DNA from: a virus
Length of the DNA stretch: 41,898 nucleotides
Virus record (IMG/VR): IMGVR_UViG_3300030107_000319
Location: 1 to 41,898 of that record
Direction: 5' to 3' (one strand)
The translations under genes were made by a program, and so were the position numbers. The stretch's first letter is position 1. Every line of letters starts with the position of its first letter. The notes beneath the pieces are model-generated. The model saw only the letters and a program-made list of their open reading frames with translations, had not been told where the DNA came from and did no database searches. Below, one piece after another: positions 18,576-32,924 of this stretch.

Positions 18576-19001
18576 ATGATACCTACGACTAATCCGCCGA
18601 ATCGTTTAGACCAATTACGGGCTAGTGCTGGCCCGATGCCCCCCGTTAGTGGTGCTCCTATGACCCCTCCCCCTCCTGCTGGGAGACCACCGATGCCACC
18701 TCCCCCTATGGGGAGACCTCCGATGCCGCCTGCCGGTAGTGCAGCTTCCACGCCCCCTGCATCTCTCCCTACCGGCGGGTCGGCCCCCATGCCTCCTATG
18801 GAAGAACCTGAAGCAGATCGTCTCGAAGCATTATTAGGTGGTATGGAAGAAGAGCCGATGATGTTCGAAGAAGAAACATTTAGTACACAAGATGTAGCTA
18901 CTGGTATAGCGACTTCCGCGTTACAAATATCTGGTTCGCCTGAACAAGCTCTAATGGCTGTCGAACAAGCAGCCGATGAATTACGAGCGATGTTAAGTTA
19001 A
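18576..19001 (+). CDS. Proline-rich protein at the end of the virion gene run
   Basis: 141 residues. Residues about 14-75 are low-complexity Pro/Met/Gly (PPPPAGRPPMPPPPMGRPP), likely extended polyproline II; residues 75-141 are acidic and helical (EADRLEALLGGMEEE, AVEQAADELRAML). It is the last rightward gene before a convergent leftward helicase gene, and the two reading frames overlap by 9 bases. The DNA is locally C-rich, unlike its surroundings. Function unknown; a linker-type virion protein is possible. Confidence 0.55.
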   Translation: MIPTTNPPNRLDQLRASAGPMPPVSGAPMTPPPPAGRPPMPPPPMGRPPMPPAGSAASTPPASLPTGGSAPMPPMEEPEADRLEALLGGMEEEPMMFEEETFSTQDVATGIATSALQISGSPEQALMAVEQAADELRAMLS

Positions 19002-20438
19002 CCAATCTTCCCACTTGTCATCGCCTAAGACTTCTTGGGCGAGATCAAGTTTATTACGAAGAGCTGTTACGATTTTTTCGTCTACTGTATCTTTAGCAAC
19101 GAGATCAACATAAGTTACGTTGTTCTTTTGTCCGATACGGTGCGCTCTATCTTCTGATTGTAGACGCTTTTCTAAGTCGAAGTTATTTGAGTAATAAATT
19201 ACGTTTTGAGCTTCAGTTAGCGTAATCCCGTAGCCGCCTGTTTGTGTATTACCTACGAAAAACCTGAGCGATGAATTAGGGTCTTGAAACTGTTTAATTA
19301 CACGCTCTCGTTCATCAGGAGTTGTATCTCCGAAATAAGACGCTACTGCATCTGCACCAAACAAACCTTGTAGCGTTTCGACTATCTCTAAAATATTTTG
19401 TCTATAATTAGCCCAGATAATTATCTTGCCTTGCATCTCTGCAATAATTTCTATAAGTTCGTCTATACGGTTGTTATTAATAGGTGTTTCCGTACCGTCA
19501 TCACTTTTTATATGACCGCATACTATTTGATGTAGCCGTAGGAGTTGGGTGAGCACGTTAGTAACACTAACGGTTTCTTGATTAGCTAGTTCAGTAATCG
19601 CTAACTCTTTTAATTCAGCGTAAAGTTTCTTTTGTTCGGCAGTAAGCGTTACATCCCGACGAATATAAAGTTTCTCCGGCAGGTCTAAACAGTCGCTTTT
19701 TAAGACTCTGTAAGAAAAACTATCTAGTTTTTGTGATAACTCATCTAAGTTCCGATACCCAACAACTTGTCGTACCGTTCTACCACCGAAGTAACGATTA
19801 ACTACTTCGCCGTAATGGTTTTGGAAAGAGTAATACGACGTATACCCAAGTAAATTTGTTTCTAATACTTCTGTTTGGCTGTACAAGTCTAGTGGTGATT
19901 GGGTGATAGGCGAGCCAGTAAGGATACGACGATACTTTGTATTTTTAGCTAGTTTCGTAATCGCTTTGGTACGGGACGCTTTCGGGTTTTTAATCGTCGT
20001 AGATTCATCTACCGCGAACAATACTTGATGGCCGAGGATAAAGTTCTCAGTAAATTTGACACCTTTAGCTGTACTAAACGCTTCGACGTTGATAATAAAT
20101 ATTTTGAGTTTATCTAGGTCAGTATGAAAGAGTTTTACTAAATCTGCTTTTTCTTGTTTGCGAGGCGCAGGCGACCATACTGCGACATGTCTATCTACAT
20201 ACTCTGGTAAATGGTCGGGTATTTCTTTAGTAGACCAGTTTCTATACACACCTTTTGGTGCGACTATAACAACGGCGTTGATAGCACCTTTACCGTATAA
20301 AATGCCAATCGTATCTATAAGAACTTTTGATTTACCTGTACCCATCTCCATGAATAACCCATAGTTAGGTTTGTTCCATGAGCGAAGCAAAGCAGTTCTC
20401 TGGTGCGCAAACGGCTCCGTTTTGAATTCGTACTTCAA
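18993..20438 (-). CDS. SNF2/SWI2-family DNA helicase-like ATPase
   Basis: 481 residues, the only leftward gene between 1 and 40.9 kb. Motif I is MEMGTGKSKV (residues 30-39), motif II is DEST (144-147) rather than DEAH/DEAD, motif III LTGSPITQSP (173-182), and motif VI SEDRAHRIGQK (428-438), which is diagnostic for SNF2 proteins. Such ATPases translocate on double-stranded DNA; phage versions are found with replication genes and may help fork movement or remodel protein-DNA complexes. The start is TTG at 20438, supported by GAAAGGA just upstream on this strand; no nearby ATG fits. Transcription would begin in the divergent region 20439-20733. Confidence 0.9.
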   Translation of the reverse strand: MKYEFKTEPFAHQRTALLRSWNKPNYGLFMEMGTGKSKVLIDTIGILYGKGAINAVVIVAPKGVYRNWSTKEIPDHLPEYVDRHVAVWSPAPRKQEKADLVKLFHTDLDKLKIFIINVEAFSTAKGVKFTENFILGHQVLFAVDESTTIKNPKASRTKAITKLAKNTKYRRILTGSPITQSPLDLYSQTEVLETNLLGYTSYYSFQNHYGEVVNRYFGGRTVRQVVGYRNLDELSQKLDSFSYRVLKSDCLDLPEKLYIRRDVTLTAEQKKLYAELKELAITELANQETVSVTNVLTQLLRLHQIVCGHIKSDDGTETPINNNRIDELIEIIAEMQGKIIIWANYRQNILEIVETLQGLFGADAVASYFGDTTPDERERVIKQFQDPNSSLRFFVGNTQTGGYGITLTEAQNVIYYSNNFDLEKRLQSEDRAHRIGQKNNVTYVDLVAKDTVDEKIVTALRNKLDLAQEVLGDDKWEDWLT

Positions 20439-22457: not shown

Positions 22458-23981
22458 ATGTCGATACAAGAGGAGTTTGCCGCCCGTTTCGCGGGGTTGA
22501 GACACGGCTATAGTGTCTTTACCCCGACGAAAGAAACGAGAGAGGATGGCAAAGCAAAAGGTAAATATGTAACAATTTCGCAAACGCTCAATCAAAAAGA
22601 ACTAATAGCCATATGGGCAGAGCATTTGAGAGGGGAGAGAAGTTTAGGGATCGTTCCAATAGATGAAGATAATATGTGCGTTTGGGGTGCCATAGATATC
22701 GACGATTACCCGCTAGATCTAAAAGGTCTATCAAAAAAGATTAAGAAATTTAAACTTCCACTGGTGGTGACGCGATCTAAAAGCGGTGGCGCTCACATCT
22801 TCCTATTTGTTTTTGACCCAGTGCCTTGTTCTCTTATGCAGCGTAAGTTGCGTCAGATATCTGCAGCGATAGGGTTCGGACAATCAGAAGTTTTTCCAAA
22901 ACAAACCCAGCTTTTATTAGAGCGAGGGGATAGGGGTAGCCCGTTACAGATGCCCTATTTCGGCGGCGAGGACTCTACTAGCTACGGATTTAGCGGGACG
23001 GGAGGAGTTTTAACGCCTAAGAAGTTTTTGGAATATTGTGACGATATCGTCTTAACAGAAGAAGAATTAGAAAAGTTAGAAGTATCTCCGATAATCGAAG
23101 ATGCAGAGTGGTTAGACCATTCACCTCCCTGTTTAGAACATCTGATAGCCCAGGGTTTCCCGAAAGGTATGCGTAACTCTGGACTGTTTAACGTAGGTGT
23201 GTTCCTGCGTAAAAAGTTCCCAGATGATTGGGAGGGTCGATTAGAGCAGGTAAATCATAAACATTTTAACCCGCCACTTAGCGCACAAGAAGTATTAAGT
23301 GTAGCTAAGCAAGTACAGAAAAAAGATTACTTTTATAAATGTAACGATCAACCGATAGCTGGACATTGTAATAGTCCGTTATGTCGTACACGAAAGTATG
23401 GCATAGGAGCGTCGGGAGGAACGCCGCTGTTTAGTAATCTGACTAAACAAAACAGTGATCCGCCTATCTGGTTTTTAGATGTAGAAGGAGGCAGGCTCGA
23501 ATTAGAAACAGAAGAGCTACTAAACCAGACTAGGTTCCAACGTAAATGTATGGATAGCTTAAATATCATCCCGCCTAAAGTACGAGACAACGTATGGAGA
23601 ACAATTATTCAACAGTTATTAGATAACTTAACGATTATCGAAGTGCCGCAAGACGCATCTACTGAAGGTCACTTTAACGAACTACTAGAAACTTTTTGTA
23701 CAGAACGACCTGCTAGAGAACGTGACGAGCTATTACTTGGTAAACCCTGGAGCGATAAAACAAGAACTTATTTCAGGTTAGCTGATTTGATGGATTTTCT
23801 ACACCGTAAAAATTTCAGAGATTACCCTAGAAATAAACTTACAGCGAAACTCAAAAATATGGGAGGCGAAGCGCACTTCTTCAATATAAAAGGAAAAGGT
23901 GTAAACGTCTGGCATATCCCAGAGTTTCAGGTACAAACAGAATCGCATACTCTGCCAGAATTTAACGACTCGCCATTGTAA
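22458..23981 (+). CDS. Archaeo-eukaryotic-type primase (TOTE-primase-like) with C-terminal Cys motif
   Basis: 507 residues. The N-terminal domain shows the AEP catalytic signature: acidic D80-x-D82 in WGAIDIDDYP, SGGAH (109-113) in RSKSGGAHIFLF, and EVFPKQ (144-149) with the following RGSPLQMPYFGG, the pattern of primases in TOTE conflict systems. Residues about 225-315 form a helical part with C225, C295, C304 and C309, like zinc-containing primase C-terminal domains. It would make primers for the family A polymerase. The next gene, a UvrD-type helicase, starts on the last base of its stop codon (TAATG), so the two probably act together. No DnaB- or gp4-type helicase is seen. Confidence 0.85.
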   Translation: MSIQEEFAARFAGLRHGYSVFTPTKETREDGKAKGKYVTISQTLNQKELIAIWAEHLRGERSLGIVPIDEDNMCVWGAIDIDDYPLDLKGLSKKIKKFKLPLVVTRSKSGGAHIFLFVFDPVPCSLMQRKLRQISAAIGFGQSEVFPKQTQLLLERGDRGSPLQMPYFGGEDSTSYGFSGTGGVLTPKKFLEYCDDIVLTEEELEKLEVSPIIEDAEWLDHSPPCLEHLIAQGFPKGMRNSGLFNVGVFLRKKFPDDWEGRLEQVNHKHFNPPLSAQEVLSVAKQVQKKDYFYKCNDQPIAGHCNSPLCRTRKYGIGASGGTPLFSNLTKQNSDPPIWFLDVEGGRLELETEELLNQTRFQRKCMDSLNIIPPKVRDNVWRTIIQQLLDNLTIIEVPQDASTEGHFNELLETFCTERPARERDELLLGKPWSDKTRTYFRLADLMDFLHRKNFRDYPRNKLTAKLKNMGGEAHFFNIKGKGVNVWHIPEFQVQTESHTLPEFNDSPL

Positions 23982-25474
23982 TGCTGAAGTCAAACGCACA
24001 AATAATCCTTGGCCCTCCTGGAACTGGAAAGACCAGTACGTTGTTAGGTTTGTTAGAAGAGGAATTAGATCGTGGGACTTGCCCAGAAGATATAGGGTTC
24101 TTTACGTTTACCAAACAAGCGGTGCAAGAGGGTAAGAGCCGAGCTATGTCTAGGTTCGGGATTACTAATAATCAATTACCGTTTTTTAGAACATTACATT
24201 CGCTATGTTTTTTCCAACTAGGACTATCGAAAGATAGTGTAATGGGAGCTAGAGACCTTAACGATCTAAACCAAAAACTAAACTTACGACTAACAGGTTC
24301 TATTAGTTCGGACGATGGACATGTCTCAGGTATTTCGAAAGATGACCGACTGATGTTCATAGAAAATTTAGCGAGGATGCGACAAGTTAGTTTAGAAACG
24401 CAGTGGCATGAATCTGATGATGTCGTAGGTTGGTTTGCCTTAGAACGATTTGCTAACGGGTTGCGATTATTTAAAAACGACAGATTACTTATCGACTACA
24501 CCGATATGTTGCAGTTGTTTTTAGATCGTGGTCGTGCTCCTAGATTAGACGTTATGTTTGTAGACGAAGCGCAAGATCTGTCTCCGTTACAGTGGGCAGT
24601 CGTTCGTAAGTTATGTGAATCAGCTGATCGTATTTATATCGCAGGCGACGATGACCAAGCTATCTATCGGTGGGCTGGCGCTGATGTAGATTATTTGATC
24701 CGTAATTCTAAAGATGCGATGGTTCTTAAACAGTCTTACAGAATCCCTAAATCTATTCATACGTTAGCCGAGCGTTGTATCGGACAAGTAGCTTCGCGGG
24801 TACAAAAGACTTGGAACCCTAGAAAAGAAGCAGGCCATGTATCGTGGGAGAAATCTTACGAATCCATAGATATGGAATCAGGTGACTGGTTAGTATTAGC
24901 AAGGACTAATTACCTACTAAACGGTATCGAAGAACACTGTCGGTCAGAAGGATGGTTTTATAAAACCAAAAACCGTAACTCAGTTTCTGAAAAGAAAGTA
25001 AAAGCGGTGCGCGATTGGGAGACTTTACGCAAAGGCGGCGAGATACTGCTCGTAGATCTTATCAAAGTCTTAAATTATATGCGGGTCAGCGTACCTACCT
25101 CCCTAGAGAGAAACGACTTTGATAGTAATATCTCATTTGAAGAGGTGCAATCTTATATCCCTGACCTTAAACAAGAGTATTGGTACGATCTTTTCGACGG
25201 TATCTCTGTATCCGAGCGTAGCTATATCCGAGCAATGCTTAGACGGGGAGAAAAAATTACCAAAGAACCTCGTATCAAACTATCGACGATCCATGCTGCT
25301 AAAGGAGGAGAAGCAGAAAACGTAATTTTACTGACCGATATATCAAACCGAATCTATAAGTCTTACCAAGCTAACCCTGACGATGAGTCCAGAGTTTTTT
25401 ATGTAGGGCTAACTAGAGCAAAACAAAATCTATTTTTAATAGAACCTCAAACACAAAAGTACTTCCAGATTTAG
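23981..25474 (+). CDS. UvrD/Rep-family superfamily 1 DNA helicase
   Basis: 497 residues, compact for this family. Motifs in order: Ia-type GPPGTGKT (11-18), VDEAQDLSPLQW (194-205, motif II DEAQ), AGDDDQAIYRWAGA (221-234, motif III), KQSYRIP (250-256, IV), STIHAAKGGEAENV (435-448, V) and YVGLTRAK (474-481, VI). SF1A helicases move 3'-5' on single-stranded DNA; here it is likely the replicative or recombination helicase partnered with the primase upstream. Gene end is followed by a promoter for the next operon. Confidence 0.92.
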   Translation: MLKSNAQIILGPPGTGKTSTLLGLLEEELDRGTCPEDIGFFTFTKQAVQEGKSRAMSRFGITNNQLPFFRTLHSLCFFQLGLSKDSVMGARDLNDLNQKLNLRLTGSISSDDGHVSGISKDDRLMFIENLARMRQVSLETQWHESDDVVGWFALERFANGLRLFKNDRLLIDYTDMLQLFLDRGRAPRLDVMFVDEAQDLSPLQWAVVRKLCESADRIYIAGDDDQAIYRWAGADVDYLIRNSKDAMVLKQSYRIPKSIHTLAERCIGQVASRVQKTWNPRKEAGHVSWEKSYESIDMESGDWLVLARTNYLLNGIEEHCRSEGWFYKTKNRNSVSEKKVKAVRDWETLRKGGEILLVDLIKVLNYMRVSVPTSLERNDFDSNISFEEVQSYIPDLKQEYWYDLFDGISVSERSYIRAMLRRGEKITKEPRIKLSTIHAAKGGEAENVILLTDISNRIYKSYQANPDDESRVFYVGLTRAKQNLFLIEPQTQKYFQI

Positions 25475-25477
25475 TCC

Positions 25478-25507
25478 TTTACTTTGTTAAAAAATCTAAG
25501 GTAAAGT
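25478..25507 (+). promoter_or_regulatory. Promoter of the methyltransferase/ThyA-like/PolA operon (TTTACT-18-TAAAGT)
   Basis: TTTACT (25478-25483), an 18-base spacer and TAAAGT (25502-25507) match the sites at 20678 and 33688. The leader continues GTAGAAAGGAGAATATT to the ATG at 25533. The CTTTAC/GTAAAG boxes also form an inverted repeat, so a repressor or hairpin function is possible. Confidence 0.6.
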
Positions 25508-25532
25508 AGTAAACCGTAGAAAGGAGAATATT

Positions 25533-26393
25533 ATGGCGTCTATAAGAAAAACGCTTGACCAAAACGTAAACGATAGCAAAAACACTCGTATGGATATTGC
25601 TGGCGGCAATATGTTAGGTAACTGGCGTCCAGACGAAATAACACATATGACTCGGTACGACAAAATATCTACCTTGTGTATCGAAGAAGCAAAACGGTTA
25701 GGGCGACCGATAGATGTATTAGAGGCAGGATGCGGTGAAGTATGGGTTCTGCGTAACTTGTATAAAGCCTACACGATTAAAAAGTCCGATGTTATCGGAT
25801 CGTATCGCGGCGTAGATATAGACCCTGCCTGTTTAAACGAAAAGGTGGGGTATAGCAGTCCTACTGGATTCCTCAAAGATTCGACATGGTTCGCTAACTT
25901 TAATGGTCAGATCGATATTCAAGATCTCACAGTAAACCCTGTATTCGATTTACCAGATAACTCTATAGATTTCTTTTGGACTACAGAAGTAATCGAACAT
26001 ATGGGACGCGAGTTTATTGCACCATGGCTCGACGATGCTAATCGTGTATTACGTCCAGGAGGACTGATATACGTTTCTACCCCGAACCACGACGGGTCTA
26101 ACGATAAGCTCCCAGAAGATCACGTTTACGAGTGGGGCTTCGAAGAACTTAAAGAAGAACTAGAAGACGAATCTAGGGGCTGGAAAATACAGTCTGTAGT
26201 CGGCACGTTTTGTCAACTACCGAAACTCAAAAAAGCTATGGCTCAAGATAACGATGATCACGAATGGCGCTGGTGGCCTGATCAATATGAGTTACTTGAA
26301 GAACGCTACGGTAGACAGTTTTTACGAGTAGTTGCTGCTACCTTTTATCCAGAAGTATCTAACAACTGTGCGTGGATCTTGAGAAAGATTTAA
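25533..26393 (+). CDS. Class I SAM-dependent methyltransferase
   Basis: 286 residues. Motif I is VLEAGCGEVW (62-71), followed by GVDIDP (93-98; acidic residue for the SAM ribose), FDLPDNSIDFFWTTEVIEH (138-156) and LRPGGLIYVSTPN (173-185), a typical Methyltransf_11-like core. No DPPY/NPPY motif of N6-adenine/N4-cytosine enzymes nor the PC motif of C5-cytosine enzymes is present, so it is not an ordinary DNA methylase; a small molecule, nucleotide or modified base is more likely. First gene of an operon with a base-modification-related protein and a ThyA-family enzyme. Confidence 0.85.
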   Translation: MASIRKTLDQNVNDSKNTRMDIAGGNMLGNWRPDEITHMTRYDKISTLCIEEAKRLGRPIDVLEAGCGEVWVLRNLYKAYTIKKSDVIGSYRGVDIDPACLNEKVGYSSPTGFLKDSTWFANFNGQIDIQDLTVNPVFDLPDNSIDFFWTTEVIEHMGREFIAPWLDDANRVLRPGGLIYVSTPNHDGSNDKLPEDHVYEWGFEELKEELEDESRGWKIQSVVGTFCQLPKLKKAMAQDNDDHEWRWWPDQYELLEERYGRQFLRVVAATFYPEVSNNCAWILRKI

Positions 26394-27289
26394 TGACCAA
26401 CTTTATACCAGCAGAGGTAGACCGCTACGTTTATTGGATCGAAGAACGAGAGCGAATACGTCGAGTAAAAGAAGAAGATAGACAAGAACCGCCTTGGACT
26501 CGCGACCCGATATTACGAGAGTTTAAGTTTTGTCAAGTCTTCCGTGAGGACGATAGGACTACCCGCTGGTTTAGAGAACATATCCGAGAGCCGCTGCGTA
26601 ATAAGCCAGAAGTATTGATGGCGACAGTTATCTTTAGATTTTTTAATCTTATAGAAACAGGACATACGTTACTCGACCATAACTTACATATCGAGTGGGA
26701 TCGTCTCAAAGCTATCGAAGAAGTAAAAAAGCAACCGAAATGGATTACTGGTGCGTATATCGTCAAAACTCCTAACCGTATGGATAAAGTAACAGGGGTA
26801 GCTGAATGTATTACACATCTATGGGTAGAGCGAGAGCGGATACTAAAAGATTTTCAGTATTTTAAATCGCTATCGGATGCATGGAATTACTTATTACGGT
26901 TCCCGTATATAGGGCCATTCGTTTCTTACGAACTGGTCTCGGATCTAAGACATACCTATCTACTAGAAAACGCTGAAGATATTTGTTCTTGGGCTAATGC
27001 TGGCCCTGGAGCGATGAGAGGATTAAACAGGCTAACAGGTAGGCCGCTAGAATTTTGTAGGCGCAGTTGGGATTGGAACGGCGAGATGCAAGCACTTTAT
27101 AAATGGTGCACTGAGAATATTGATTTGAGCCAGTTTGATAAACCTTTCGAAATGCGTGAGATTGAAGGCGGTTTATGCGAGTTCGATAAATACTCTCGGA
27201 TACTACATGGTCAAGGACGCACCCGAAGCGTTTATGACTACTCGCAAAAAGATCGCCCGTTGATCGAGTACTACGGGGAACAACAATAA
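26393..27289 (+). CDS. HMUDK_hel / alpha-glutamyl-putrescinyl-thymine pyrophosphorylase-like protein
   Basis: 298 residues from ATG 26393 (TAATG with the previous stop). Residues 32-60 read EPPWTRDPILREFKFCQVF then REDDRTTRWF, and residues 171-213 read PYIGPFVSYELVSDLRHT ... WANAGPGAMRGLNR, followed by EGGLCEFDKYSR. These are the hallmark blocks of the family described in thymine hypermodification systems (helical domain of 5-hmdU DNA kinase; aGPT-pyrophosphorylase clades), with a helix-hairpin-helix glycosylase-like fold. No Walker A motif is present, so the kinase part is absent. Likely acts on modified thymines in DNA or nucleotides; the substrate is inferred from family and from the ThyA-like gene nearby. 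Confidence 0.72.
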   Translation: MTNFIPAEVDRYVYWIEERERIRRVKEEDRQEPPWTRDPILREFKFCQVFREDDRTTRWFREHIREPLRNKPEVLMATVIFRFFNLIETGHTLLDHNLHIEWDRLKAIEEVKKQPKWITGAYIVKTPNRMDKVTGVAECITHLWVERERILKDFQYFKSLSDAWNYLLRFPYIGPFVSYELVSDLRHTYLLENAEDICSWANAGPGAMRGLNRLTGRPLEFCRRSWDWNGEMQALYKWCTENIDLSQFDKPFEMREIEGGLCEFDKYSRILHGQGRTRSVYDYSQKDRPLIEYYGEQQ

Positions 27290-27305
27290 ATCTGTAGGAG
27301 GCAGA

Positions 27306-27542
27306 GTGGGAAAACTAAAAAATTTGATTATAGACCTTGAAAGTAAAGACACTGACTTCGTAATGGAGCATTACGGATTGTTTTTAGAGAAAGCTGTAAA
27401 AGATAGAAACATGCCGCACTCTTGGTCAGATGCGATAAACGCTATTCATTGGGCAGCTTACTTAGCTGATAAAAATTTAGTGCGATTACAAATAGAACAT
27501 ATCCTCAGAGAGCAAACGGAGAGTCTTTATGAAGGTGATTAA
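27306..27542 (+). CDS. Small helical protein between the modification genes, GTG start
   Basis: 78 residues from GTG 27306, preceded by GTAGGAGG at 27293-27300. All helical in appearance (LIIDLESKDTDFVMEHYGLF, HWAAYLADKNLVRLQIEHIL). It overlaps the ThyA-family gene by 14 bases. Could be a regulator or a partner subunit of its neighbours; no family recognised. Confidence 0.6.
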   Translation: MGKLKNLIIDLESKDTDFVMEHYGLFLEKAVKDRNMPHSWSDAINAIHWAAYLADKNLVRLQIEHILREQTESLYEGD

Positions 27543-28581
27543 CGCCGTTAATGTAAACGACGCTTTAATGCGAGGGATCGATTTGTTTAAGTCACCGATA
27601 AATTATAGGACTCAAGAAAGTCGTAACGGCCCAACGATGGAGTGCCGTACACCAGTTACGACAGTTTATAACAAACCTTGGCAACGAGTGTTATTTAAGA
27701 CAGAGCGAGACGCTAATCCTTTCTTTCATTTATATGAGTCGATATGGATGTTAGCTGGCTCTCGAGACTTAAATAAACTAACCCACTTTAATTCAGGGAT
27801 GTCTCAATACTCAGATGATAACGTAACTCTTAACGGTGCTTACGGTTATCGCTGGCGTAGACGTTTCGATTATGACCAATTAGCCGACGTAGTTGACTCG
27901 CTAAAAGAAGACCCCGATAGTCGCCGTGTTGTCCTACAGATGTGGGATCCTGTTCACGATCTAAATAGCATCAGTAAAGATATACCCTGTAATACGAATA
28001 TCTATTTCAAAGTACGGGGCGGCGAACTGCAGATGACAGTTTGTAATAGATCGAACGATATGATCTGGGGAGCTTATGGTGCTAACGCTGTCCATATGTC
28101 GGTGTTACAAGAATACATAGCATCTGCCCTCGGAGTATATATAGGGCCGTACTATCAAATCAGTGATAGTTTTCATGTCTACCTAAATAAAGAATGGGAT
28201 AAAATTAAACACCTGAGTGTTACACCTTTCCTGCCTGTCAATGAGTTTTATCCAGAAACTCATTACCCTTTATGTTCTAACCCTGAAACATTTTTAGAGG
28301 AATGTGAATCTCTAATCGACTCTATCCCGCCTCGCAGGGTATCTGGTAATCCACACCCTGTTAACGTCTGGCCAAAAATGTGGAAAGAACACGAATACAA
28401 AAACACGTTCTTTCCTGAAGTAATGATCCCGATGATCAGAGCTTATTTATGTCATAAGGAAAGAAAGTATGAAGAATGCTATACGCACTTGGCGGAAATT
28501 AAGGCGGAGGATTGGCAGTTCGCCTGCCTCCAGTGGATTAAAAGACGTGAAGCTAATTGGAGAAAGAAGAATGGGGCTTGA
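27529..28581 (+). CDS. ThyA-family thymidylate synthase or dUMP hydroxymethylase
   Basis: 350 residues, longer than E. coli ThyA (264). Key features: E70 in YESIWMLAGSRDLNKL, NGAYGYRWR (102-110), DSRRVVLQMWDP (130-141), catalytic C154 in IPCNT, CNRSNDMIWGAYGANAVHM (172-190) and DSFHVY (213-218). N186 corresponds to the Asn that selects uracil; dCMP hydroxymethylases such as T4 gp42 carry Asp. So it should use dUMP, making dTMP or 5-hydroxymethyl-dUMP. The PC-N-T and GAYGANAV segments differ from the standard PCH and GxPFNIA of true TS, which favours a hydroxymethylase or other variant. Neighbours support an unusual-thymine role. Confidence 0.78.
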   Translation: MKVINAVNVNDALMRGIDLFKSPINYRTQESRNGPTMECRTPVTTVYNKPWQRVLFKTERDANPFFHLYESIWMLAGSRDLNKLTHFNSGMSQYSDDNVTLNGAYGYRWRRRFDYDQLADVVDSLKEDPDSRRVVLQMWDPVHDLNSISKDIPCNTNIYFKVRGGELQMTVCNRSNDMIWGAYGANAVHMSVLQEYIASALGVYIGPYYQISDSFHVYLNKEWDKIKHLSVTPFLPVNEFYPETHYPLCSNPETFLEECESLIDSIPPRRVSGNPHPVNVWPKMWKEHEYKNTFFPEVMIPMIRAYLCHKERKYEECYTHLAEIKAEDWQFACLQWIKRREANWRKKNGA

Positions 28582-28903
28582 TGCTAAGTGGACAGAGATG
28601 AAAGATCTCGCTCAACAAGATATTTTGAGCTTAATAGAATCAGAAAAATCTTACGGCGACTCGTGGAAACGACGAGGAGGTACAGGTGCTTTTATGATGC
28701 TCGCTCGTAAATTCGATCGGATCGAACAACAAGCAGAAAGTTGTAATTACGACGTATTTAAAGCAGGAAATATGTTCGGTGGTGAAGATGGTTTACTCGA
28801 CGATATCGGAGACTTGAGACGATATTTGTTTTTAGTAGAACACCATATTCGATACAGCATAGGAGATATCGACCCCGATGCAGATACCACTATTACAACC
28901 TGA
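28571..28903 (+). CDS. DUF1599/Nmad1-like small protein (nucleotide-modification associated?)
   Basis: 110 residues from ATG 28571, overlapping the ThyA-like gene by 11 bases. Residues 27-52 read SYGDSWKRRGGTGAFMML followed by ARKFDRIEQQ. The Y-G-x-S-W ... K-x-x-R pattern resembles DUF1599, a domain named for its link to nucleotide modification, and all-alpha MazG-like nucleotide enzymes. Its place between the ThyA-like enzyme and the polymerase supports a nucleotide-related role. The assignment rests on a short motif and is moderate. Confidence 0.6.
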   Translation: MGLDAKWTEMKDLAQQDILSLIESEKSYGDSWKRRGGTGAFMMLARKFDRIEQQAESCNYDVFKAGNMFGGEDGLLDDIGDLRRYLFLVEHHIRYSIGDIDPDADTTITT

Positions 28904-30740
28904 AAGCGATTGGATAGCTCCGCAAGTTTTACCTAAGTTCGATCCTCATGAAACATTAGCAGTCGATTTAGAAACTTACGACCCTAACCTGACGAACCGT
29001 GGGCCAGGATGGGCAACAGGCGACGGATATATCGTAGGGATAGCTATCGCATCAGATAAATGGTCAGGGTATTTACCGATACGACATGAGAACGGCGGTA
29101 ATTTAGAAGAAGAATTAGTAATCCGCTGGCTTAAAAGAACCTTTGAAAATCATAAAGGTACGATGGTTTTCCATAATGCACTTTATGATGTCGGTTGGCT
29201 CAAACGAGAGGGCGTAGAGTTAACTTGTACTATCCGCGATACGATGTTTGCAGCTCCGCTGTTTGACGAAAACCGCTGGTCATACTCGTTAAATAATTTA
29301 GGTATGGATTTTTTAGCAGAGTCGAAAGACGAAACGCTACTAGAAAACGCAGCTAAAGCATGGGGTGTAAATCCGAAAGGCGGTATGTGGGCACTGCCTG
29401 CTAAATACGTTGGGCCATACGCTGAACAAGATGCAGTGCTGACGCTCAAACTATGGAAGATATTTAAAAAGCGGATCGAGATCGAAGGCTTACAAAAAAT
29501 CTACGATTTAGAATGTGATCTTATACCGCTGCTGATCGAGATGCGTTGGCGCGGCGTTCGGATCGATACAGATCGGGCAGAACAAACAGCGACTGAGATG
29601 TCTAAAAAAGAACAGCAGTTGCTCGTAGAAATCAAACGTAGGTTCGGAGTCAGCGTAGATATTTGGGCGAGCGCCTCGATACAAAAAGCATTCGATACCA
29701 ACGACTTATGGTATCCACATACAGAAAAAGGTGCGCCTAGTTTTCAGGGGCCGTGGTTAGAGGCTCACGAACATGATCTCCCGAAGATGATCGTTGAAGC
29801 TCGACGTATCAACAAAGCTCGGACGACATTTATCGAAGGTGCGATTTTAGAATACTCCCATAACGGTCGGATACATGCCGAAGCTCATCCTCTTAAAAAT
29901 GATGGTGGCGGTACAGTAACAGGCAGGTTTAGTTACTCGAACCCAAACTTACAGCAAGTACCTGCTAGAGACCCAGAGATCGGTAAACTTATACGATCTT
30001 TATTTATCCCAGAGGAGGGTGCAACGTGGGGCGCGTTCGATTACTCGCAACAGGAACCTAGGATAACCGTACATTACGCCTCCCTACTCGGCTTAGAAGG
30101 CGCTACGGACGCTGTAAAAGCCTACTCGACCGAAGGGGCCGACTTCCACCAGATCGTTGCCGATATGGCAGGTATCCCTCGCAAACAAGCTAAGAATATA
30201 AATCTTGGGTTGACGTATGGCATGGGACAGCAAAAGCTGATCCGAGAGTTAGGTTTAGAACCAGACGAAGCTCTTAAACTGTTAGAAACATATCATCGCC
30301 GTGTGCCGTTTATACGAGGCTTACAATCAAGGTGTACTCGGATAGCGGAACAGCGCGGGTGTATTACGACGCTCGGAGGTCGGAAATGCCACTTCGATTT
30401 GTGGGAGGCGGTCGGATTTTTACATGACGAAAAACAAACTCCTCTACCACTACAAGAGGCGAAAGATAAATACGGAGATAATCTCAAACGATCGTTTACA
30501 TATAAAGCACTAAATAAATTGATCCAGGGTTCAGCTGCTGATATGACGAAACTCGCGATGCGTGATCTGTGGAAAGAAGGATTAGTGCCGCATATACAAA
30601 TACATGATGAACTCGACTACTCAATATTTAATCAAGAACAAGCAGAGATCGTGATCGACCGAATGGTAAATTGTGTAAAGATGCGAGTACCGTTAGTCGT
30701 AGATTACGAGTCTGGATCAAATTGGGGAGAAGCTGAATGA
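28878..30740 (+). CDS. polA: Family A DNA polymerase (PolA) with 3'-5' exonuclease, Leu at position 762
   Basis: 620 residues; no 5'-3' exonuclease domain. Exonuclease motifs: AVDLETYD (D30, E32), HNALYD (D104) and YAEQD (Y181, D185). Polymerase motif A is DYSQQEPR (388-395), motif B RKQAKNINLGLTYG (435-448) with R435, K439 and Y447 at the canonical spacing, and motif C HIQIHDELD (572-580). The residue equivalent to E. coli Phe762 is Leu443; such Leu variants are common in marine virioplankton and are thought to polymerise more slowly or selectively. It is the replicative polymerase of the phage. Start ATG 28878 overlaps the previous gene by 26 bases. Confidence 0.95.
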   Translation: MQIPLLQPESDWIAPQVLPKFDPHETLAVDLETYDPNLTNRGPGWATGDGYIVGIAIASDKWSGYLPIRHENGGNLEEELVIRWLKRTFENHKGTMVFHNALYDVGWLKREGVELTCTIRDTMFAAPLFDENRWSYSLNNLGMDFLAESKDETLLENAAKAWGVNPKGGMWALPAKYVGPYAEQDAVLTLKLWKIFKKRIEIEGLQKIYDLECDLIPLLIEMRWRGVRIDTDRAEQTATEMSKKEQQLLVEIKRRFGVSVDIWASASIQKAFDTNDLWYPHTEKGAPSFQGPWLEAHEHDLPKMIVEARRINKARTTFIEGAILEYSHNGRIHAEAHPLKNDGGGTVTGRFSYSNPNLQQVPARDPEIGKLIRSLFIPEEGATWGAFDYSQQEPRITVHYASLLGLEGATDAVKAYSTEGADFHQIVADMAGIPRKQAKNINLGLTYGMGQQKLIRELGLEPDEALKLLETYHRRVPFIRGLQSRCTRIAEQRGCITTLGGRKCHFDLWEAVGFLHDEKQTPLPLQEAKDKYGDNLKRSFTYKALNKLIQGSAADMTKLAMRDLWKEGLVPHIQIHDELDYSIFNQEQAEIVIDRMVNCVKMRVPLVVDYESGSNWGEAE

Positions 30741-31907: not shown

Positions 31908-32924
31908 ATGGTTGCAGCAGTAGAGAGTATGGCCTGGACAGGCCAAGTACCGTGGCATAGGGAGGGTGTCGAAGTCGACAATAACCTTACGCCACACGAG
32001 ATGATGGTAGCAGCTGGCCTTGATTGGACAGTTAGTAAGCGCCCTTTATATACGCTCGAGCATGCGCCCGAGAAGTATGAGAAAGATGATGAGGGCAACC
32101 TTATCGTAACTAGTCTTACAACGTACCCTGACCGCTTTAGTATCATGCGTGATACTGATAACCAAGCGTTAGGTACTTGTTCAGCCGATTACCAACCTAT
32201 CCAAAACGAGCGTATCTTCGACTTCTTCCAGAAGTTTGCTAAACACGCTAAGATCACTATGGAGACCGCAGGTAGTTTGCGTGACGGTAAAGATATTTTC
32301 GCACTAGCGCGGTTAAACGATAACTTTGCACTTCCAGGAGGCGACGAGCTACAACCTTTTGTTTTGTTTCGTCAGCCACACGAGCCTGGATATGCGATGA
32401 ATATTATGGATACCGAAATACGGGTCGTATGCAGTAATACATTGCAGCTTGCTTTACGAGGAGCAAACGTCGCCCAGTACAAAATGTCCCACCGTTTGGT
32501 GTTCGATGAGCTAAGAGAAGAACAAGCACTTAAAACTATGGGCGCTGTTTATGAGCGGCGTGCAGAGTTTAAAGAAGCGGCTGAGTTCTTAGCTAAAACC
32601 AAAGCTAAAGACGGTCAGGTTATAGAGTTCATCTCTAAACTTTACCAGCCTAAAGTTTTGGAAGAGCACAAGCCCGAGGACGGCCCACTGCGTGACGGGT
32701 TTAGTAGCACTGCTAAAACAGTTTACGAGGCTCTCGCTACCGCGCCAGGAGCTGATCTTAAATCAGCACAAGGCACATGGTGGGGCGCAGTAAATGCGGT
32801 GACCTTCGTCGAAGACCATAAGCGTACAGGTGATAACCGTGTATATAACGCGATGTTTGGAGACGCGTCTACCCGTAAAACCAAAGCGTTGAACCTAGCT
32901 ATTGAATATGCGAAGGCGGCGTAG
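31908..32924 (+). CDS. DUF932 (TIGR03299-type) phage/plasmid protein
   Basis: 338 residues. The order MAWTGQVPWHREG, then YQPIQNERIFDFF, ETAGSLRDGKDIFALARL, IRVVCSNTLQLAL and a C-terminal TWWGAVNAVTFVEDHKR is characteristic of the DUF932 family shared by phages and plasmids. Its biochemical role is unknown to me; it is often found among early accessory genes and is sometimes expressed strongly. Own promoter and structured leader upstream, strong AAAGGAG site. Starts the accessory region. Confidence 0.85.
   Translation: MVAAVESMAWTGQVPWHREGVEVDNNLTPHEMMVAAGLDWTVSKRPLYTLEHAPEKYEKDDEGNLIVTSLTTYPDRFSIMRDTDNQALGTCSADYQPIQNERIFDFFQKFAKHAKITMETAGSLRDGKDIFALARLNDNFALPGGDELQPFVLFRQPHEPGYAMNIMDTEIRVVCSNTLQLALRGANVAQYKMSHRLVFDELREEQALKTMGAVYERRAEFKEAAEFLAKTKAKDGQVIEFISKLYQPKVLEEHKPEDGPLRDGFSSTAKTVYEALATAPGADLKSAQGTWWGAVNAVTFVEDHKRTGDNRVYNAMFGDASTRKTKALNLAIEYAKAA

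Follow-up and report, generated by a model that had tools for sequence, protein, structure and literature searches.

The thymidine hypermodification of Pseudomonas phage M6 is 5-NedU. In the gene clusters of M6 / YuA and PaMx11, the genes for HMUDK_hel, a dUMP hydroxymethylase, a Pam3_54-type protein and the DNA polymerase PolA are found in the same order as in the marine virus described here, IMG/VR record IMGVR_UViG_3300030107_000319, which was analysed over its positions 1 to 41,898 (41,898 nucleotides, hereafter referred to as the window). The enzymes of these clusters are 37-46% identical to those of the window. The clusters differ from the window in that they also encode a P-loop kinase for 5-hydroxymethyl-deoxyuridine (5-hmdU) in DNA (PF18748), an amino acid:DNA transferase (ADDT, PF18724), tailoring enzymes and an HD phosphohydrolase, whereas neither the window nor its relatives encode any of these, but have a methyltransferase (MTase) in their stead. 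The features of the M6/ViI-type pathway that are present in the window are the predicted dUMP hydroxymethylase and HMUDK_hel beside PolA.

Two further groups of phages resemble the window. In pelagiphages, a thymidylate synthase (TS) and an aG/PT-PPlase1 protein encoded near PolA were published in 2022 as a pair for thymidine hypermodification (PMC9599517). The HTVC023P-type pelagiphages of that study very likely belong to the same phage group as the window virus and have the same gene pair in the same place beside PolA, but the main text mentions no methyltransferase and proposes no kinase-free or methylated route. Brevibacterium phage LuckyBarnes and related viral contigs combine HMUDK_hel and a hydroxymethylase without a 5-hmdU kinase, as does the window, but with glycosyl transfer by TAGT rather than methyl transfer.

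In the window, four modification genes and a small fifth open reading frame (ORF) are located between the genes for a UvrD helicase and PolA, all on the + strand. Neighbouring genes overlap or almost overlap one after another, with a 1-nt overlap between the stop of the MTase gene and the start of the HMUDK_hel gene. This segment is most likely a self-contained, kinase-free cassette for thymine hypermodification, and is composed, together with its boundaries, of the following genes:

23981..25474, + strand: UvrD-like helicase (PF00580), upstream boundary of the cassette
25533..26393, + strand: class I S-adenosylmethionine (SAM)-dependent MTase, 286 amino acids (Methyltransf_23, E 9e-10), predicted 5-hydroxymethylpyrimidine O-methyltransferase
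26393..27289, + strand: HMUDK_hel / aGPT-Pplase1 protein, 298 amino acids, standing alone (PF18723, E 5e-43), predicted 5-hmdU recogniser
27306..27542, + strand: ORF of 78 amino acids, no family match above the cut-off
27529..28581, + strand: ThyA-family enzyme, 350 amino acids (phrog_5131, E 2e-112), predicted dUMP 5-hydroxymethylase
28571..28903, + strand: protein of 110 amino acids, Pam3_54 / M6 gp061 family (hidden Markov model, HMM, matches)
28878..30740, + strand: PolA, family A DNA polymerase (PF00476 and PF01612), downstream boundary of the cassette

The interpretation of the cassette as a thymine-modification system is well supported. A preliminary description of this DNA, which correctly placed PolA directly downstream (PF00476 and PF01612 matches), had proposed replacement or decoration of thymine by the phage, and this is supported by the grouping of the ThyA-like enzyme with dUMP hydroxymethylases and by the confirmation of HMUDK_hel. 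In the pathway that we consider most likely, with a probability of about 0.58, the ThyA-like enzyme would convert dUMP to 5-hydroxymethyl-dUMP (hm-dUMP), host kinases, perhaps aided by the 110-amino acid protein, would convert hm-dUMP to the triphosphate, and PolA would put 5-hydroxymethyl-dU triphosphate into DNA. HMUDK_hel, with its putative DNA-glycosylase-like fold, may then recognise or flip 5-hmdU in DNA and present the base to the co-translated MTase, which would transfer the methyl group of SAM to the hydroxymethyl oxygen. The resulting 5-methoxymethyl-deoxyuridine would mask the phage DNA from host nucleases. The acceptor atom, the product and methylation at the level of DNA are the steps of this chemistry that we infer.

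In total, 153 distinct HMUDK_hel loci were collected from IMG/VR scans and named phages after removal of near-identical copies, in a sample for which similarity to the window and PaMx11 set the ranking. The partner enzyme is the MTase in 100 of these loci, a P-loop 5-hmdU kinase of the M6/PaMx11 type in 26 and the TAGT glycosyltransferase in 15, while 12 have none of these. The three partners are mutually exclusive, with two of them found together in 0/153 loci; the associated P values of 6e-15 and 3e-8 ignore sequence relatedness and so overstate the significance. The MTase gene is situated upstream of HMUDK_hel, with the two genes overlapping or abutting, in 92 of the 100 MTase loci. Likewise, the kinase gene is upstream of HMUDK_hel in 20 of the 26 kinase loci, mostly adjacent to it, and the MTase sits in the slot held by the P-loop 5-hmdU DNA kinase in M6/PaMx11-type phages. 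On the HMUDK_hel tree, the minimum number of label changes is 2 for the MTase, 9 for the kinase and 11 for the glycosyltransferase; the MTase loci are confined to one part of the tree, and the locus counts do not represent independent events. With its recurrence in some 100 distinct viral loci, the cassette is clearly no chance arrangement. Its gene content, homology and conservation are matters of observation, and so is the fact that MTase, kinase and glycosyltransferase exclude one another.

Whole MTase records were also searched. The P-loop 5-hmdU DNA kinase, ADDT (PF18724) and TAGT were found in none of the 43 records (the window and 42 relatives), with the corresponding controls recovered in 5/5, 5/5 and 4/4 cases. 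The preliminary description had likewise seen no recognisable 5-hmdU kinase.

The ThyA-like protein has its best phage relatives in M6-, PaMx11- and Bordetella CN1-type phages and in Pam3 (40-43% identity), and these are hydroxymethylases or genes annotated as TS, in hypermodified phages. When compared with solved structures, CMP 5-hydroxymethylase was nearest and outscored every TS. We aligned the active site to those of E. coli TS, T4 dCMP hydroxymethylase and an SPO1-type enzyme. The alignment places Cys154 within a PCN motif, where E. coli TS has PCH, and Asn186 at the position of E. coli TS Asn177, which is the known uracil/cytosine switch. The catalytic Cys is thus present, as is the uracil-type Asn noted in the preliminary description, as compared to an Asp in C-type (cytosine-type) enzymes and T4 gp42. 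The GAN/PCN signature is common to the SPO1-type, M6, PaMx11 and Pam3 enzymes, and GAN was found in all ThyA-type enzymes read from MTase loci except that of MW202510, a C-type phage. The enzyme, which groups with the dUMP hydroxymethylases of hypermodified phages, is predicted from its family to be a dUMP 5-hydroxymethylase.

The 110-amino acid protein had been labelled as DUF1599-like, but the PF07659 profile gave no match even at E 10, and this identity was abandoned. No Pfam match was obtained for the protein, whereas an HMM match to Pam3_54, the gene of which occupies a comparable position in cyanophage Pam3, was obtained at E 6e-37. It is linked to DUF3310 (PF11753) not directly, but only via an iterated profile to M6 gp061 and PaMx11 gp53, which themselves match PF11753 weakly. 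The HMM also matches the C-terminal parts of the ThyA proteins of Montesquieu (4e-8) and LuckyBarnes (4e-5). A natural fusion was observed in two actinophages, where ThyA-type proteins of about 516 amino acids have a C-terminal part that matches the 110-amino acid family (L178:2816-4369, L267:6025-7575). The protein is predicted to be a nucleotide-pool partner of the hydroxymethylase.

The 298-amino acid protein matches PF18723 over the full length (148 bits against a cut-off of 25, profile positions 4-278 of 281), in line with its earlier labelling as an HMUDK_hel/aGPT-pyrophosphorylase-like protein. An identity as aGPT-Pplase3 was dropped since PF18746 gave no match, and a sequence search against solved structures returned no match. 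The AlphaFold (AF2) model (pLDDT 93) has structural matches to the 8-oxoG, EndoIII, MutY and AlkA glycosylases (best Z ~11), and also resembles the queuine salvage enzyme DUF2419 and the PaMx11 glycinyltransferase PUGT. The best structural rows are nearly all HhH-GPD proteins, which is suggestive, but not proof, of a DNA-glycosylase-like (HhH-GPD) fold. Because HMUDK_hel is found with a kinase, a glycosyltransferase or a methyltransferase, we interpret it as a putative subunit for the recognition of 5-hmdU in DNA. It is unlikely to be a kinase on its own, as 115 of the 153 loci pair it with MTase or TAGT and have no kinase. Nine diverse HMUDK_hel proteins were also aligned, but they differed too much for the alignment to be used as a scan profile.

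A neighbouring HMUDK_hel clade (L199-L207), which lacks the kinase, TAGT and the MTase described here, contains an FkbM-type methyltransferase and a group 1 glycosyltransferase, with a protein of 207-314 amino acids encoded directly upstream of HMUDK_hel. This clade is probably another modification variant, and fits the idea of a 5-hmdU-recognising subunit with varied partners.

The MTase matches only Methyltransf_23/11/25/12/31/8 in Pfam, with no match to the N6A, N4C or C5 DNA methylases, consistent with its earlier description as a class I methyltransferase without DNA-methylase motifs. The AF2 model (pLDDT 81) has a class I fold with Z ~16 to RebM, CmoM, METTL6 and others, and no match was obtained in a sequence search against solved structures. 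A scan of bacterial genomes for the window-type MTase identified a single contig of 5.2 kb from a Maricaulis metagenome-assembled genome (MAG), and a scan of plasmids yielded weak matches only; the family therefore looks virus-bound. The Maricaulis contig (NZMJ01000039.1), with an MTase of 55% identity to that of the window, is probably a viral contig that was binned with the bacterium.

We also searched 50,697 phage records with the window MTase, and only five relatives were identified, in AXL3 (two records), PW916, MW202510 and MW202621. All five have a pyrimidine (ThyA-type) hydroxymethylase within about 2 kb of the MTase and an NTP-PPase nearby. These hydroxymethylases have Asp at the specificity position and are therefore cytosine-type. 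A scan with the AXL3-type MTases recovered 80 IMG/VR loci, of which 69 have a recognisable hydroxymethylase, Asp-type where it was read, and which commonly also carry an NTP-PPase, a dNMP kinase and a dCMP deaminase. HMUDK_hel was found in 0/12 of the sister-family records searched whole. A widespread operon in this set has the order MTase, NTP-PPase, dNMP kinase, Asp-type hydroxymethylase and dCMP deaminase (L268, which is AXL3, L270, L175, L269 and L272-L351), and is predicted to make methylated 5-hydroxymethylcytosine.

The MTase family of the window (T-type, for thymine) and the sister family align over residues 17-285, to the C-terminus (hhalign E 2.4e-24), and have 22 near-invariant residues in common, including H38, R41, H197, E200, N278 and W281, several of which lie outside the SAM core. 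Since related families sit in both T-type and C-type loci, the MTase tracks the 5-hydroxymethyl-pyrimidines of both bases, and one MTase superfamily accompanies the hydroxymethylation of either pyrimidine. The acceptor would be the hydroxymethyl oxygen, the group that is common to 5-hydroxymethyluracil and 5-hydroxymethylcytosine (5hmC) and that can be methylated without harm to base pairing. The suggestion of a possibly methylated product in the preliminary description is strengthened by the association of the MTase family with dCMP hydroxymethylases elsewhere, with the methylated product still a matter of prediction.

The DNA of AXL3, a cultured Stenotrophomonas phage, is refractory to 35 of the 37 restriction enzymes tested; the two that do cut it recognise AATT and TTAA, both of them A/T-only sites (PMC7504290), a pattern as expected for modified cytosine. 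A carbamoyltransferase from an environmental phage operon has been shown to act on the hydroxyl of 5hmC (MetaGPA, PMC8670742). As in the AXL3-type MTase operons, that operon encodes a ThyA homologue, an NTP-PPase (PRA-PH) and a dCMP deaminase; it differs from the window in the transfer of carbamoyl rather than methyl, in the use of cytosine rather than uracil, and in that the window adds HMUDK_hel. This carbamoyltransferase is the closest experimental parallel and a model for the AXL3 MTase family. More tentatively, at somewhat below even odds in our estimate, HMUDK_hel could be, rather than part of a kinase, an interchangeable subunit that reads DNA and hands 5-hmdU over to an adjoining kinase, glycosyltransferase or methyltransferase, with this group of marine phages producing 5-methoxymethyl-deoxyuridine and the AXL3-type sister family 5-methoxymethyl-deoxycytidine, neither of which is known to have been reported in DNA.

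Several points weigh against methylation of 5-hmdU in DNA by the window MTase. The T-type and C-type MTases are only ~24% identical in sequence, so that a change of substrate is possible, and a class I MTase fold does not reveal the acceptor. Because the C-type operons have no HMUDK_hel, the MTase cannot depend on this protein in general. The structural similarity of HMUDK_hel to the glycosylases is of moderate strength (Z ~11, Foldseek E 0.25), and among helical folds the arrangement of the helices may by itself produce a match. In addition, the genome in the window is probably incomplete: the record measures 41.9 kb, compared with 55-67 kb for several relatives. The main rival is methylation at the nucleotide level, in which the pathway and the product are the same but the substrate of the MTase is the mononucleotide (hm-dUMP or hm-dUTP), methylated prior to its incorporation, and HMUDK_hel has a different task, for example to mark or protect modified sites. 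The C-type operons, in which a dNMP kinase and an NTP-PPase accompany the MTase and HMUDK_hel is missing, would fit this scheme, as would the finding that the comparable carbamoyltransferase also acts on 5hmdCTP (PMC8670742). We nevertheless consider it unlikely, given that HMUDK_hel overlaps or abuts the MTase in 92 of the 100 T-type loci, and that the slot in M6/PaMx11-type loci is taken by a kinase of 5-hmdU in DNA (PMC6449724).

Slightly less likely still is that the DNA contains only 5-hmdU, at which SPO1-type phages are known to stop (PMC6449724), and that the MTase, the fold of which is similar to those of many small-molecule and RNA MTases, acts on RNA, a host metabolite, a protein or an ordinary DNA base. 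Against this, the position of the MTase gene is that of the 5-hmdU kinase in other phages, and the MTase families are linked to hydroxymethylases in two distinct phage contexts, T-type and C-type. Distant enzymes can escape profile searches, and the window is probably incomplete, but the usual kinase and amino-acid route, with enzymes too diverged to be detected or supplied by the host, is improbable in view of the 0/43 MTase records with an alignment to the kinase or the ADDT family, where all controls were positive, and the 0/153 loci with both MTase and kinase. Finally, homologues of the ThyA-like protein are automatically annotated as TS, and an ordinary TS with unrelated neighbours and no DNA modification would account for this. 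We regard this as very improbable, since the nearest relatives of the protein belong to hypermodified phages and are hydroxymethylases, the solved CMP hydroxymethylase outscores all TS, PCN replaces the PCH of E. coli TS, and the gene is linked to HMUDK_hel.

The nearest relatives of the window PolA are from HTVC023P-type pelagiphages, which indicates by sequence that the window virus is close to this group. The related phage DSL-LC04, which lacks the cassette, has genes for a primase and a UvrD helicase followed directly by PolA, and 023Pt_psg01, likewise a relative without the cassette, has a primase, a UvrD helicase, two small genes and then PolA. Because the same flanks are kept in these phages, the cassette looks like a discrete module that was gained or lost between the UvrD helicase and PolA. 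The preliminary description had placed the genes under one promoter, which is unproven, as a consensus scan identified no sigma-70-like site in the 58-nt gap 5' of the MTase gene. The 78-amino acid ORF is present in only a part of the related loci (69/175, duplicates included). Elsewhere in the window, a primase of the archaeo-eukaryotic type, related to that of the TOTE conflict system (22458-23981, PF22548, E 2e-12), a DUF932 protein in the replication region (31908-32924, PF06067, E 2e-40) and an SNF2-type helicase on the - strand, opposite to its neighbours (18993-20438, PF00176, E 7e-20), were identified.

Three features seem to be novel: the kinase-free MTase variant, the mutual exclusion between this MTase and the kinase or glycosyltransferase, and the connection with the cytosine operons of the AXL3 type. 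No methoxymethyl-pyrimidine in phage DNA was found in the literature covered, which leaves out Iyer 2013, Lee 2018 and Lee 2021, and 5-methoxymethyl-uracil is a predicted DNA base for which no report was found. If the interpretation is correct, the known hypermodifications of phage DNA would be extended by a new terminal chemistry, a methyl ether, in a group of phages with relatives that infect SAR11. HMUDK_hel would gain a role independent of the kinase that it is named for, and an MTase family that occurs widely among environmental viral contigs would have a function assigned.

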